From: a bacterium BMS3Bbin10
GTDB taxonomy: Bacteria > Pseudomonadota > Alphaproteobacteria > Rhizobiales > Methyloligellaceae
NCBI GenBank assembly: GCA_002897995.1
Contig: BDTT01000127.1
Location: forward strand, 1-64,000
Direction of reading: 5' to 3'
Length of the DNA stretch: 64,000 bases
Shown here: positions 13,438 to 55,964 of the stretch, one piece after another
Layout: each line of letters begins with the position of its first letter
Position numbering within the stretch: the stretch's first letter is position 1
Program-made: the position numbers and the translations under genes
Notes under the pieces: model-generated
Seen by the model: only the letters and a program-made list of their open reading frames with translations
What the model was told of the DNA's origin: nothing
Databases searched by the model: none

Positions 13438-15111
13438 ATGCCACGAGACATTACCGACAAGGTTTCCATTGCGCTGGCGCAACTGAACCCGGCGGTCGGC
13501 GACGTCGCCGGGAATGCCGCGCTGGCTCGCAGGGCGCGCGAAGAAGCCGCCGGTATGGGCGCGGACCTGCTGGTCTTTACCGAACTCTTCATCACCGGAT
13601 ATCCGCCGGAGGATCTGATCCTCAAGCCGGCGTTTCGCGCCGCCGCGCGCGCCTGTATTGAAGACCTTGCCGGGGAAACGTCGAATGACGGTCCGGCGAT
13701 ACTGATCGGAACGCCCTGGGAGGAGGGCGGACAGGTCTATAACGCCGCCGCGCTGCTGGATCGCGGCAAAATCGCGGGCCTAAGCTACAAGGCCGAACTC
13801 CCCAACTACGGTGTGTTTGATGAAAAACGCGTCTTTGAGCCGGGTCCGATGCCGGGTTCGCTCAATTTTCGCGGGTTACGGATTGGCGTCGCGATTTGCG
13901 AAGACATCTGGGTTGACGAGATTTGCGAATGCCTGGTGGAGACCGGCGCGGAAATACTGATCGTGCCGAACGGGTCGCCTTACTTTTCCGGCAAAATGGA
14001 TGTGCGCATGAATGTCGCCGCCCAGCGGGTGGCCGAGAATGGTGTGCCGCTGATCTATGTGAATCAGGTTGGCGGCCAGGATGAGCTTGTGTTTGATGGC
14101 GCGTCCTTTGCGCTCAGCAATGACAGCGCGCTGGCGGCTCAGCTCCCGGCCTGGCGGGAGAAAATCGAGTTGACGGAATGGTCGCGGAGCGATGGCGCAT
14201 GGCGCTGCGTGCCGAACATCTTCGAAATGGTTGAGGAGGGAGAGGAGGCGGACTATCTCGCCTGCGTGACGGGCTTGCGGGATTATGTGACCAAGAACGG
14301 GTTTCCGGGCGTCGTGCTGGGTCTGTCGGGCGGCATCGATTCAGCGCTCTGCGCTGCAATATCCGTCGATGCGCTGGGGCCTGAAAAAGTGCATTGCATC
14401 ATGCTGCCCTACACCTTTACCAGCGATCAAAGTCTGAGTGACGCGGCCGCATGTGCCGAGGTGCTGGATGTGCGCTATGAAATCGTACCGATTCACGCTC
14501 CCGTTGAGGGTTTTGCCGAATGCCTTCAGCCCTTTTTCGAGGGGCAGCCCGCCGGCACGGCGGAGGAAAATATCCAGTCGCGCACGCGCGGCACAATACT
14601 CATGGCCATCTCCAACAAGTTTGGCTCAATGCTGGTGACAACCGGCAACAAGTCGGAAGTGTCGGTTGGCTACGCCACGCTCTATGGCGATATGAATGGC
14701 GGTTTCAACCCGATCAAAGACCTCTACAAGACGCAGGTTTATGCTCTCTCGCGCTGGCGCAACGCGCATGTGCCGCAGGGCGCGCTCGGGCCCGGCGGCA
14801 TGGTCATCCCCGAAAATATTCTCACCAAGGCGCCAACCGCGGAATTGAAGGAAAACCAGAGGGATCAGGATTCTCTTCCCGCCTATGACGTGCTCGACGA
14901 TATTCTCGAATGTCTCGTTGATAACGAAATGCCGGTGGCGGATATTGTTGCGCGCGGCCATGACGAGGCGACCGTTTCGCATATTGAGCAGCTGCTCTAT
15001 CTCGCCGAATACAAACGCCGGCAATCGGCCCCGGGGGTCAAGATCACGCAGAAACTGTTCGGCCGGGACCGCCGCTATCCGATAACCAACGGATTTCGCG
15101 AGACGGAATAG
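13438..15111 (+). CDS. nadE: Glutamine-dependent NAD+ synthetase
   Basis: The 557-residue two-domain enzyme makes NAD from deamido-NAD using glutamine-derived ammonia. The N-terminal nitrilase-type amidase carries the catalytic triad Glu49 (VFTELF), Lys118 (YKAELPNYG) and Cys154 (AICEDIW). The C-terminal synthetase domain starts near residue 280 and has the P-loop LSGGIDS at 296-302 and NKSEVSVGYATLYGDMNGG near residue 400. The gene ends at a TAG followed at once by a perfect palindrome that separates it from the convergent DUF2865 gene. Confidence 0.96.
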   Translation: MPRDITDKVSIALAQLNPAVGDVAGNAALARRAREEAAGMGADLLVFTELFITGYPPEDLILKPAFRAAARACIEDLAGETSNDGPAILIGTPWEEGGQVYNAAALLDRGKIAGLSYKAELPNYGVFDEKRVFEPGPMPGSLNFRGLRIGVAICEDIWVDEICECLVETGAEILIVPNGSPYFSGKMDVRMNVAAQRVAENGVPLIYVNQVGGQDELVFDGASFALSNDSALAAQLPAWREKIELTEWSRSDGAWRCVPNIFEMVEEGEEADYLACVTGLRDYVTKNGFPGVVLGLSGGIDSALCAAISVDALGPEKVHCIMLPYTFTSDQSLSDAAACAEVLDVRYEIVPIHAPVEGFAECLQPFFEGQPAGTAEENIQSRTRGTILMAISNKFGSMLVTTGNKSEVSVGYATLYGDMNGGFNPIKDLYKTQVYALSRWRNAHVPQGALGPGGMVIPENILTKAPTAELKENQRDQDSLPAYDVLDDILECLVDNEMPVADIVARGHDEATVSHIEQLLYLAEYKRRQSAPGVKITQKLFGRDRRYPITNGFRETE

Positions 15112-15115
15112 CTGG

Positions 15116-15158
15116 TGCGTATCACCGATAAGTGGGAACCACTTATCGGTGATACGCA
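15116..15158. repeat. Palindromic repeat, copy 2 (perfect 20-bp arms)
   Basis: TGCGTATCACCGATAAGTGG (15116-15135) pairs perfectly with 15139-15158 around a GAA loop, and the pairing extends imperfectly into GCTGG/CTAGC on the flanks. The arm is shared with copy 1 at 8097. The right border CTAG contributes the TAG stop codon of the convergent DUF2865 gene. It may act as a bidirectional transcription block, but there are no T-tracts. Confidence 0.88.
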
Positions 15159-16265
15159 CTAGCGGGCCGGTTTCGCCTTGTTCTTTTCATCGACGAATTT
15201 CGCGCCGCCCGGGCCGGGCTTTTGTCCTTTCCCGCTTTCCGCTTTTTCGTTCGCGGCGGCGATCTCGCTCGGATTGTATTCAACCGCCTTGCAGGAGCAG
15301 CCCTTTACATATTCCTTGCGGTAGCGCCAGGCATTGGGCTGGTCGCTATAGGCGCGCCGCCCGTCGGCGGAAACCATTTGCTCGGGTTCCTCACCGGGGT
15401 TGCGGTACACGAACAACTCCGCGGGCGCCGCGCAGCGCGATTGGCATTTCCGCAGATCTTGTGCAAAACGGCTGGGCAGTGCCGAAAAACTTACAGGAAA
15501 GTAGTAACCGTCGCAGGATCTCACGCATAAAGTGCGATAGGTGGCGAAAGATTCGATCCGGGAAGTTTCCAGTCCGCGCCTTGGCGCGGTATCCCAGAAA
15601 TCCTCCTCGAACCAGCTCATGAACCCGCGTCCGCCGCCGCGCCGCCGCGTCTCCTGCTGGTAACTGGTTCTGCAACCGGCCCGGCTGAGTGCCGCGATAA
15701 GATCACTCTGGCGGCGGCTCTGGCCGCCGCGCGTGGCCGCGCGCTGTTCCTGGAGTAGCGCAAGCTGGCGCCTGGCGTCTTCGATCTTGCGGTTCAACCG
15801 AAGGCATCTGGGGGTGCGGACAAGCGAGCGCCCAAATATAAAGTTGCTCTGATAACAGCCCAGCCGGTTAGCCCTGGCCTGGGATGTCTGGAATATCCGG
15901 TCGAAATTGCGGATCTTCTTATCGAGCGCGGGACCATCGTTGCGCCCTTGCTGGCGCTGGACCCAGTCATTGGCCAGCTCCTGCTCAAGCTGCATGCAGC
16001 GCAACTCCTGCGCCGATGGGCGGCGCTGGCCCTGATATGCGGGCGGCGGCTGCTGATATCCAGGTTGAGGATAGGGTTGCGGATATGGCTGCGGATAGGG
16101 TTGCTGGGCAACTGCCAGCGACCAGATCCCGACAACCCCAAACACAATAGCGCTGCCGCAGGCTGCGGCGATACCGCTCTTGCGGTGCTGGGCAAATGAC
16201 TTTTGAAGAGTCGATATTGTACGCTTCAATTTCAAGACGACCTGGCCGCGTGAAAACATCACCAA
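15159..16265 (-). CDS. DUF2865 domain-containing secreted protein with PYPQ repeats
   Basis: This 368-residue protein has a hydrophobic segment near residues 30-50 that looks like an uncleaved or late signal peptide, then a tandem PYPQPYPQPYPQP tract near residues 55-68. The rest is Cys-rich (CMQLE, LGCYQSNF, CLRLN, CVRSCDGYYFPVSF, CQSRC, CSCK) and matches the DUF2865 pattern, including the RSCDGYYFPVSF core near residue 255. The family is found mainly in Rhizobiales and has no known function; a periplasmic location is inferred. The stop codon lies inside the palindrome border at 15159. Confidence 0.82.
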   Translation of the reverse strand: MVMFSRGQVVLKLKRTISTLQKSFAQHRKSGIAAACGSAIVFGVVGIWSLAVAQQPYPQPYPQPYPQPGYQQPPPAYQGQRRPSAQELRCMQLEQELANDWVQRQQGRNDGPALDKKIRNFDRIFQTSQARANRLGCYQSNFIFGRSLVRTPRCLRLNRKIEDARRQLALLQEQRAATRGGQSRRQSDLIAALSRAGCRTSYQQETRRRGGGRGFMSWFEEDFWDTAPRRGLETSRIESFATYRTLCVRSCDGYYFPVSFSALPSRFAQDLRKCQSRCAAPAELFVYRNPGEEPEQMVSADGRRAYSDQPNAWRYRKEYVKGCSCKAVEYNPSEIAAANEKAESGKGQKPGPGGAKFVDEKNKAKPAR

Positions 16266-18812: not shown

Positions 18813-18903
18813 CCTCATGCTGAGGAGCGATCCGTCAGGATCGCGTCTCGAAGCATGTGACGGCATCCTTCGAGACGGCGCTTTGCGCCTCCTCAGGATG
18901 AGG
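18813..18903. repeat. Paired palindromic repeats, locus A (REP/BIME-like)
   Basis: Two related palindromes lie in opposite orientation. The first (18813-18857) runs from CCTCATGCTGAGGAGCG to CGCGTCTCGAAGCATG. The second (18864-18903), read on the minus strand, runs from CCTCATCCTGAGGAG to CGTCTCGAAGGATG. Each can form a stem-loop with a variable middle. Related pairs occur at 40654 and 55799. The element fills most of the cysS-cimA gap. Confidence 0.88.
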
Positions 18904-40586: not shown

Positions 40587-40653
40587 GGTGCAGGTGAGTC
40601 CGCATTGGCGGAGTCTGAGCTAATATCGGGGATATTGAATATGATACGTGGCG

Positions 40654-40763
40654 GATGCTTCGAGACGCGCCCTTAGGGGCGCTCCTCAGCATGAGGTATG
40701 TGCTTGTCGTTCACTCATAAAACCTCATCCTGAGGAGGCGCGCCAGCGCCGTCTCGAAGGATG
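40654..40763. repeat. Paired palindromic repeats, locus B (REP/BIME-like)
   Basis: The first palindrome (40654-40696) reads from GATGCTTCGAGACGCG to CTCCTCAGCATGAGG, and the second (40723-40763) from CCTCATCCTGAGGAGGCG to CGTCTCGAAGGATG, in the opposite orientation. They are separated by 26 unrelated bases. The locus lies in the gap between guaA and the convergent DksA-like gene. Confidence 0.88.
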
Positions 40764-40853
40764 TGCGGATCGGTCGGAGTGGGTGACAGCCGGCATAGCC
40801 TGCCAGGCCATATAAGTATTCGGTTTTAGCAAGAGGCGATCCGCGTGACTTTT

Positions 40854-53682: not shown

Positions 53683-55767
53683 ATGGATGCCCGCATTCCC
53701 ATAGGCTACAGCGCCTGCCCGCATGACTGCCCCTCGACCTGCGCGCTTGAGGTGGAGCTGCCGGGCGGCAACCGCATCGGGCGCGTGCGCGGCGCCAGGG
53801 ACAACAGCTATACCGCGGGCGTCATCTGCGCCAAGGTCGCGCGCTACACTGAGCGCATCCACCATCCCGGCAGGCTGATGACCCCGCTCCGCCGCAAGGG
53901 TGAAAAAGGCTCGCGCGATTTCGAGCCGGTCAGTTGGGACGATGCCCTCAATATCACGGCGGAGAAATTGCTGGAGGCCGAAGCCCGTTACGGGGCGGAA
54001 GCCGTGTGGCCTTATTATTTCGCCGGAACCATGGGGCTGTTGATGCGCGACGGCATCAACCGGCTGCGGCACGCCAAGCGCTATTCGCGCCAGTTCTCAA
54101 CCATTTGCACGACACTTGCGGACACAGGCTTCATGGCCGGTACGGGCAAGATCATGGGGCCGGACCCGCGCGAGATGGCGCGGGCGGATCTCGTGGTGCT
54201 GTGGGGCACGAATGCGGTCGCCACCCAGGTCAATGTGATGACCCATGCGACGCGCGCGCGCCGTGAGCGGGGGGCGAAGATCGCGGTGGTCGATGTTTAT
54301 AACAACGCGACCATGCAACAGGCTGATATTCCTGTAATAATTCGCCCCGGCACCGACGGGGCGCTGGCCTGCGCGGTCATGCATGTGCTGTTTCGCGATG
54401 GCTATGCGGACCGGAAATTCCTCGATGACTCAACGGATTGTCCGCGTGAATTCGAAGAATATCTGAAAAGCCGCACTCCCCAATGGGCTGCCGGGATCAC
54501 CGGACTGCCGGTTCAGGAAATAGATGAATTCGCGAAGGCTATCGGCACGACGCCGCGCAGCTATTTCCGCTTGGGTTATGGTTTTACGCGCTCGCGCAAC
54601 GGCTCGATCAACATGCATGCGGCGAGTTGTATCCCTTCCGTGACCGGCGCCTGGGCCCATGAAGGGGGCGGCGCGTTTTACTCCAACAAGGACATCTATT
54701 CCTGGGACAAGACCATGATCGAGGGCCTGGACGCCATCGACCCCGATGTGCGGATGCTCGATCTCACGCGCATCGGCGCCGTGCTGACCGGAGAGGAAGA
54801 GGACATTGGCGAGGGGCCGCCGGTCACGGCGCTGTTCATCCAGAATATGAATCCGGTGGCCGTTGCGCCGGATCAACGCAAGGTCAGGGCCGGGTTCGCG
54901 CGCGATGATCTGTTCGTTTGCGTGCATGAGCAGTTCATGACGGAAACCGCGCAACTGGCCGACATCGTGCTGCCAGCGACGATGTTCCTCGAGCATGACG
55001 ATTTCTATCAGGGGGGCGGGCACCAGCATATTCTGCTCGGGCCCAGGCTGATCGAGCCCCCCGGCGAATGCCGCTCCAACCACGATGTCATCTGCGCGCT
55101 TGCGGAGCGGGTGGGGGCGGAACATCCCGGATTTGAGATGACCGCCCGGGAGCTGATCGATCATACTTTGCGGGTATCGGGATGGGGTGCTCTGGCGGAA
55201 CTTGAGGCAAAGCGATGGATTGACTGCCAGCCGGATTTCGAGACCGCGCATTTCCGGGGCGGGTTCGGCTGGCCCGATGGAAAATTCCGCTTCCGGCCCG
55301 ACTGGGAAAATCTTCCCTATTCCGGTGTGGGATTCAAATCATCTAACCCGCGGGTGCCGGAATTTCCGGACTATTGGGAGGTGATCGAGGGCGCGGATGA
55401 AGCGCATCCCTTTCGCCTTGTGACCCCGCCGGCGCGCAATTATCTCAATACGACTTTCTCCGAGACCCCGACATCGCAGGCGAAAGAGGGCGCGCCGGCC
55501 GCCATGATCCATCCCGGCGATCTGGCGGAGCTCGGAATCAAGGACGGCGCGCGCATCAAGATGGGCAATGAGCGCGGCGAGATCAAACTGCTGGCGCGCG
55601 CCTTTGAGGGTGTGCAGAGGGGCGTGGTGATCGTCGAAGCCATTCCCAAAAACGACAAATTCGAAGGCGGGGAGGGCATCAACACGCTGACGGGCGCGGA
55701 TTCACCTTCGCCCTTCGGCGGCGCGGCGTTCCACGACAATCACGTGTGGATCAGGGAGGTTGTGTAA
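53683..55767 (+). CDS. Molybdopterin-dependent oxidoreductase (BisC/FdhF-like, with 4Fe-4S site)
   Basis: The 694-residue protein belongs to the DMSO reductase superfamily. Cys12, Cys16, Cys20 and Cys49 (CPHDCPSTC and VICAK) form a 4Fe-4S site. Cofactor regions include PVSWDDALNITAEKL near 82, VVLWGTNAVATQVN near 172, and a C-terminal molybdopterin dinucleotide-binding domain from about 575 (YLNTTFSETPTSQ, IHPGDLAELGIKDGARIKM). No Tat signal is seen, so it is cytoplasmic. No electron-transfer subunit is adjacent, and the substrate is unknown. ATG 53683 has GGAG seven bases upstream. Confidence 0.9.
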   Translation: MDARIPIGYSACPHDCPSTCALEVELPGGNRIGRVRGARDNSYTAGVICAKVARYTERIHHPGRLMTPLRRKGEKGSRDFEPVSWDDALNITAEKLLEAEARYGAEAVWPYYFAGTMGLLMRDGINRLRHAKRYSRQFSTICTTLADTGFMAGTGKIMGPDPREMARADLVVLWGTNAVATQVNVMTHATRARRERGAKIAVVDVYNNATMQQADIPVIIRPGTDGALACAVMHVLFRDGYADRKFLDDSTDCPREFEEYLKSRTPQWAAGITGLPVQEIDEFAKAIGTTPRSYFRLGYGFTRSRNGSINMHAASCIPSVTGAWAHEGGGAFYSNKDIYSWDKTMIEGLDAIDPDVRMLDLTRIGAVLTGEEEDIGEGPPVTALFIQNMNPVAVAPDQRKVRAGFARDDLFVCVHEQFMTETAQLADIVLPATMFLEHDDFYQGGGHQHILLGPRLIEPPGECRSNHDVICALAERVGAEHPGFEMTARELIDHTLRVSGWGALAELEAKRWIDCQPDFETAHFRGGFGWPDGKFRFRPDWENLPYSGVGFKSSNPRVPEFPDYWEVIEGADEAHPFRLVTPPARNYLNTTFSETPTSQAKEGAPAAMIHPGDLAELGIKDGARIKMGNERGEIKLLARAFEGVQRGVVIVEAIPKNDKFEGGEGINTLTGADSPSPFGGAAFHDNHVWIREVV

Positions 55768-55798
55768 TACAGAAGGCGCGAGGTCTGACCGGTTCGCA

Positions 55799-55904
55799 CA
55801 TCCTTCGAGACGCCGCTTCGCGGCTCCTCAGGATGAGGATGGTGCGCAGAAAAACAAGCTATACCTCATGCTGAGGAGCGCCCGCGGGGCGCGTCTCGAA
55901 GCAT
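55799..55904. repeat. Paired palindromic repeats, locus C (REP/BIME-like)
   Basis: The first palindrome (55799-55838) reads CATCCTTCGAGACG to CTCCTCAGGATGAGG, and the second (55864-55904) reads CCTCATGCTGAGGAGCG to CGCGTCTCGAAGCATC in the opposite sense, with 25 bases between. The locus separates the convergent molybdoenzyme and P450 genes. Confidence 0.88.
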
Positions 55905-55964
55905 CAAGCATGAAATATCGAAGGCAACAGCCCTTGATGTGAGTGGGCGCAACCGAGCGCGCTG

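Follow-up and report, generated by a model that had tools for sequence, protein, structure and literature searches.

A REP-like palindrome family in an alphaproteobacterial genome occurs as non-identical inverted pairs, most head-to-head pairs deriving from a MITE-like element

The window (the whole stretch of 64,000 nucleotides that was analysed, from contig C127 of a 3.18 Mb draft genome in 137 contigs) carries three loci of a palindromic repeat. The best overall explanation, to which we give a probability of roughly 0.6, is a REP-like family that exists as non-identical inverted pairs, is copied by a MITE within the genus, passes an instability filter and is moved by a transposase other than a RAYT. 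The initial annotation had overlooked two features of this family. First, most head-to-head pairs, the 40654 and 55799 loci among them, are what is left of a MITE-like element of about 173 bp. Second, the deeper rule is the avoidance of identical partners, and the CATCC/CATGC combination described for the window is only its local form.

Palindrome pairs in the window and in the genome

Within the window, exact copies of the core CCTCATNCTGAGGAG are confined to 18813, 18889, 40682, 40723, 55824 and 55864. A covariance model trained on 16 copies (43 positions, 15 pairs) returned exactly those six palindromes when the window was scanned (E-values of 1e-14 to 1e-16). Rfam matched only two tRNAs in the window and no repeat family. 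Direct reading bore out the earlier description of each locus as one CATCC and one CATGC palindrome in opposite orientations (Table 1). The loci at 40654-40763 and 55799-55905 are head-to-head, with the CCTC ends facing inward across a spacer of 25-26 bp, while the locus at 18813-18903 is tail-to-tail with a spacer of 6 bp.

Table 1. Parts of the three repeat loci of the window. Names of neighbouring genes were assigned by reading translations.
Feature	Position	Strand	Remarks
G-type palindrome (CATGC...GCATG), tail-to-tail dimer	18813..18857	+	between cysS and citramalate synthase gene
C-type palindrome (CATCC...GGATG), same tail-to-tail dimer	18864..18903	-	6-bp spacer; no MITE arms
TAA, outer end of left arm	40621..40623	.	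possible target duplication, from comparison with intact copies
Left terminal MITE arm, degenerate (TATCGGGGATATTGAATATGATACGTGGCG)	40624..40653	+	compared with TACCAAGGGTCATTGATACTGACTCATAGC of intact copies
G-type palindrome, head-to-head dimer	40654..40696	-	downstream of guaA
MITE spacer, 26 bp	40697..40722	+	
C-type palindrome, head-to-head dimer at guaA	40723..40763	+	
Right terminal MITE arm	40764..40795	+	TGCGGATCGGTC conserved, outer part degenerate
C-side terminal MITE arm (TACAGAAGGCGCGAGGTCTGACCGGTTCGCA)	55768..55798	-	TAA precedes at 55765-55767
C-type palindrome, head-to-head dimer	55799..55838	-	between convergent molybdopterin oxidoreductase-like and cytochrome P450-like ORFs
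MITE spacer, 25 bp	55839..55863	-	
G-type palindrome, head-to-head dimer at the 55799 locus	55864..55905	+	
G-side terminal MITE arm, degenerate	55906..55937	+	

Across the genome the exact core occurs 109 times and its reversed control not once, an abundance far beyond chance. The covariance model found 143 palindromes of the family (E <= 0.1), mostly in inverted pairs, and these group into 66 clusters that include 55 inverted dimers (47 head-to-head, 8 tail-to-tail). As in REP and BIME systems, the unit is an imperfect palindrome of 20-45 bp in high copy number, distinct subtypes alternate in orientation, and placement is extragenic and downstream of genes. By simple ORF calling, the genes on either side of a head-to-head locus are convergent in 29 cases and tandem in 11; for tail-to-tail loci these counts are 2 and 5, and neither kind lies between divergent genes. 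Most loci are 10-100 bp from an ORF end, and seven overlap weak or open ORF calls.

When outer stems are classed as C-type (CAYCC) or G-type (CATGS), 52 of the 55 dimers combine a C with a G palindrome and the other three are C with C. The same exact outer subtype is found in both partners of just one dimer (CATCC/CATCC), compared with 17.6 expected when arms are re-paired (0/2000 shuffles). Additionally, no dimer has the first four inner-stem bases in common between its partners (null 17.6), and none has a perfect inter-arm match of 18 bp (null 25%). Collapsing the dimers at 85% identity left 25 clusters, 22 of which are mixed. The proposal of a BIME-like composite of two oppositely oriented subtypes thus holds genome-wide and also in relatives. 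The stricter claim that every locus pairs CATCC with CATGC is strong across the genome but not absolute, given a third outer subtype (CACCC), arrays of C palindromes, the CATCC/CATCC pair and about nine loci where no inverted partner can be recognised, several of these having a degraded one.

A MITE-like carrier and arrays of the C arm

Bacterial MITEs such as Correia elements and RUPs are about 100-200 bp long, have no ORF, end in terminal inverted repeats, are bordered by a TA-containing duplication and occur in many intergenic copies. The head-to-head loci fit this description. Their copies have more in common than the palindromes themselves, namely the spacer and the flank on each outer side. 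An intact unit reads TACCAAGGGTCATTGATACTGACTCATAGC, G palindrome, TATGTATCTGTTTTTCTGTCACAAA, C palindrome and TGCGGATCGGTCAATGCTAACGACCCCTCGTA over 172-175 bp, and its outer arms of about 30 bp are imperfect terminal inverted repeats (TACCAAGGGTCATTGATACTGAC against TACGAGGGGTCGTTAGCATTGAC). Most intact copies have TTA/TTA, TAA/TAA or TTAA/TTAA at their two ends and some copies are mismatched, which indicates a target site duplication that is not uniform among copies. The resemblance to Correia elements and RUPs therefore extends to size, ends, target duplication, lack of an ORF and the many copies between genes; the present element differs in that its core, a mixed REP-like dimer, is found outside the MITE too, in other genera, and in that no parent IS was found. 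Over essentially the full length of the 179-base query, eight copies match at 95-100%; many more are decayed, and full arms were seen only in this genome and in one of the same genus (G003). The 40654 and 55799 loci are decayed members (at 40654, TAG at 40796-40798 stands opposite the TAA at 40621-40623), and the tail-to-tail locus at 18813 lacks the arms. Because mixed pairs inside the MITE are copied as a unit, many of them are copies of one ancestor.

One copy (C24:14703) sits within a second repeat, and when one TTA is taken as the duplication the joined flanks align with the uninterrupted form of that repeat at window positions 15110-15161. The second repeat itself, at 15098-15176 of the window, is an unrelated palindrome (GTGCGTATCACCGATAAGTGG...CCACTTATCGGTGATACGCAC) with arms that are 82% complementary, and its relatives elsewhere in the genome served as MITE insertion targets at C24:14703 and probably on C48. 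In a sub-lineage of the MITE (L055, L062, L076, L077, L078, L080 and others) the outer stem of the G arm is broken, reading CATGGCTCGG...GCATC, with CATGGCTCGGAG in the G arm; that this sub-lineage multiplied all the same shows that spread does not require the G palindrome to be intact. A left-end fragment of 52 bp (L094:2379-2430; G000:C23:41378-41429), whose break falls within the G palindrome loop, directly follows its upstream ORF, and the TAA stop codon of that ORF coincides with the end of the element. In four loci, of C and G types (L040, C24:7135-7212; L065, C83:12462; L082, C114:78722-78797; L106:1443-1520), a GC-rich palindromic insert, CCCGGGTCTTGCC...GGCAAGCCC...GGACAGGCTCCGGG, takes the place of the palindrome loop and is apparently another repeat nested there.

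Neither the terminal-repeat pattern nor a search with the whole element recovered a parent IS in the 137-contig draft, the DDE_3 and DDE_Tnp_1 loci of the same draft are without MITE arms, and plasmid records gave no match to the repeat.

Tandem arrays are made of C palindromes only. Nine have 2-5 full units and a tenth (C76) has a degraded first unit, with a period of 36-38 bp. The junction TCTCGAAG/CCTCATCC is found in 20 of 21 cases, and the remaining case differs at one base. In older spacers (C61, C137 and C131:73352) CTCAAG stands directly before CCTCATCC, and the G arm has no repeat of the CTCGAAG/CTCAAG type. The observed junction is exactly what would arise if the CTCGAAG that closes the C palindrome slipped against the CTCAAG that closes an older spacer, and short-repeat slippage of this kind probably created the tandem C units. 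However, the same junction occurs once in a genome of another family (G033), so an ancient origin of the arrays is also possible. That genome additionally holds a stretch (L220, G033:C12:21700-26300) in which CATGC and CATCC palindromes alternate and tandem CATCC units occur, similar to a long BIME array.

Avoidance of identical partners among relatives

Of 101 genomes from the surrounding taxa, 29 contain palindromes of the family; in a sample of 385 genomes from across the class, 55 do. The outer subtypes that are paired differ between genomes: CACCC/CATGC and CATCC/CATGG in G016 and G025, CATCC/CATGG in G054 and G063, CATCC/CATGG and CACCC/CATGG in G009, and CATCC/CATCC in G474 and in one pair of G468. 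Since other genomes use other pairs, the CATCC/CATGC rule is local and lineage-specific. Over 24 genomes, 125 of 147 dimers are mixed by class, and none of the 147 has partners that agree in outer subtype as well as inner stem, where the null mean is 16.6. With the genome of the window left out, the count is still 0, compared with 6.3 under the null (P 0.0014). In all 13 dimers that share an outer subtype the inner stems are different, and in both dimers that share an inner stem the outer subtypes are; a perfect inter-arm match of 18 bp occurs once in 147. What holds in general is therefore the absence of homodimers. One caveat is that short-read assembly could under-represent perfect inverted repeats and so bias the dimer counts; the four most contiguous genomes alone gave 25 dimers, 0 of them identical and 1.2 expected (P 0.28), a sample too small to decide. 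In G016 and G025 it was also observed that CCTCAT dimers (L103, L122) adjoin separate palindromes of the CATTCCGGCNNAAGCCGGAAT type that resemble CGTC REPs.

In the preferred explanation, REP-like palindromes scattered through the class would persist as inverted pairs in which the two partners are prevented from becoming identical. Within the genus, a G-type arm, a spacer of about 26 bp and a C-type arm lie between imperfect terminal inverted repeats of about 30 bp, forming a non-autonomous MITE of about 173 bp that duplicates a short TA-containing target and is present in dozens of recent and decayed copies. Many pairs of this genome are then mixed through copying of the whole unit, as the common arms and spacers show. 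Across genomes, pairs would stay mixed through the instability of identical ones: a pair identical at outer and inner stem would be a near-perfect inverted repeat of about 40 bp, and presumably unstable. Slippage between CTCGAAG and CTCAAG may add tandem C units, as the junction suggests. The putative transposase would act in trans and is probably of the DDE type rather than a RAYT, because of the terminal inverted repeats and target duplications. Copies may survive at the 3' ends of genes, where their hairpins could be neutral or could serve as mRNA-end structures.

Descent alone explains much of the data and counts against this explanation. If one ancient mixed dimer had founded all copies, with no selection or instability against homodimers, a single 85% cluster holding 29 of the 55 dimers of this genome, arms and spacers common to copies, and C-class with G-class pairs in most relatives would all be expected. 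However, partners change between genomes (CACCC/CATGC, CATCC/CATGG, CATCC/CATCC) and yet the inner stem differs in every dimer in which the outer subtype does not, and tail-to-tail dimers without arms are likewise mixed. We consider an origin by descent alone possible but unlikely.

The folding results bear on the instability argument. Each window dimer, folded as DNA, has a joint minimum resembling a four-way junction, with a mismatch at the subtype position and an energy far below that of shuffles (z about -7 each). Mean energies were -24 kcal/mol for two separate hairpins, about -32 for the native joint duplex and -64 for a hypothetical homodimer. The idea that partners are unlike so that each arm folds alone was rejected, as the joint fold is the free-energy minimum of each window dimer. 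Because the joint fold is preferred, the instability argument has been restated as avoidance of long perfect inverted repeats. A more far-reaching version holds that non-identity is actively enforced across the class, being achieved either at outer-stem position 7 or in the inner stem, and that the dimer is a single functional four-way-junction element, its conserved parts pairing between the arms and its divergent inner stems folding alone, which would be recognised by some enzyme or by structure-specific nucleases. This version we regard as rather doubtful.

Also, the mixed pair could be selected as a site in its own right (a bidirectional terminator, an mRNA-end protector or a protein-binding cruciform), the asymmetry of its arms being the signal. 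The strict placement downstream of genes, never between divergent ones, and the low folding energies agree with such a role. So does outer-stem position 7: among 133 distinct elements from other genomes, 74 have C-G there and 58 have G-C (Watson-Crick in 132); pairing is kept through these swaps and the change is therefore compensatory. However, presence among relatives and across the class is patchy, the sub-lineage with a broken G-arm outer stem multiplied regardless, and purifying selection alone would also leave copies near gene ends. Selection for function is accordingly an improbable source of the mixed pairs.

Mobilisation and relation to known families

The initial annotation had proposed mobilisation in trans by a RAYT-type transposase. 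The genome has a single Y1_Tnp (RAYT-like) gene (C86:962-1630, 222 aa), which scores 73.7 bits against the NCBIfam model REP_Tyr_transpos, just below the cut-off of 80, and RAYT-like genes are also present in two relatives of the same genus. The gene is bounded by its own unrelated inverted repeats of the GGGGACAGTTTACTTAATTC type, as is the copy in G001 of the same genus, and no palindrome of the family lies within the 6 kb examined near it. The gene with its repeats (L093:850-1678; G000:C86) shows inverted repeats GGTTATTTCGGGGACAGTTTACTTAATTCC, again also at the G001 copy (L135), and is a TIR-flanked RAYT, similar to the RAYT-like genes with TIRs that Di Nocera et al. 2013 reported (PMC3733652). 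Among the 101 genomes, palindromes occur in 29 and Y1_Tnp in 18; the two coincide in 4 genomes, against about 5.2 expected, and the palindrome-rich G009, G016, G025, G028, G033 and G054 gave no Y1_Tnp match. In G063 one dimer is about 1.1 kb from a Y1_Tnp gene, but this may be chance because palindromes are dense there. The palindromes end in CCTC rather than in a GTAG-type tag, and the head-to-head copies have terminal inverted repeats and target duplications. The unrelated repeats at the gene and the lack of association across 101 genomes led us to reject RAYT action in trans as the best explanation, and movement of the palindromes as single-stranded heterodimers by a RAYT (HUH, Y1_Tnp) is highly improbable.

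The inverted doublet as replicating unit is a feature in common with REPINs (Bertels and Rainey 2011, PMC3116915), but a RAYT association was tested and was absent here, with terminal inverted repeats and target duplications in its place. E. coli BIMEs, with their Y and Z REP motifs, likewise have two subtypes alternating in orientation, extragenic and 3' of genes; the present family differs in sequence, has no GTAG tag and is not tied to a RAYT. Also close in kind are the REPs of the GTAG and CGTC superfamilies (PMC3733652), which likewise are short many-copy palindromes in head-to-head or tail-to-tail dimers, with heterodimers preferred in most families. The present family differs from these in its longer stem, variable inner part and GA mismatches, and in the quantified never-identical rule, the MITE carrier and the tandem arrays of one arm only. 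CGTC families are common in Alphaproteobacteria and are not flanked by transposase genes; CCTC is a reported variant of their tag, as is TGTC, their stems are reported to begin with AT, and a CCA tail is among their features (PMC3733652). Compared by this text description, the present palindromes end in CCTC followed by AT in most subtypes, although CACCC exists and no CCA tail was seen. The core CCTCATNCTGAGGAG was not found printed in the literature searched, where shorter strings matched unrelated primers among the matches listed. The family is apparently undescribed in that literature; the families of PMC3733652 were compared by their text descriptions, and the present one may belong among them.

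REP heterodimers themselves are already known. Di Nocera et al. found that REP dimers are mostly heterodimers, with 'no obvious explanation', and suggested that heterodimers may escape clearance of the SbcCD type (PMC3733652). What stands out here is the sharp non-identity rule and a MITE carrier without a RAYT link. A mixed REP pair lies inside a MITE that gives no sign of a RAYT, and heterodimers therefore need no explanation from RAYT biology. Exceptions to the unlike-partner rule at one site are always covered by the other site, which makes the rule in this family sharp enough to test.
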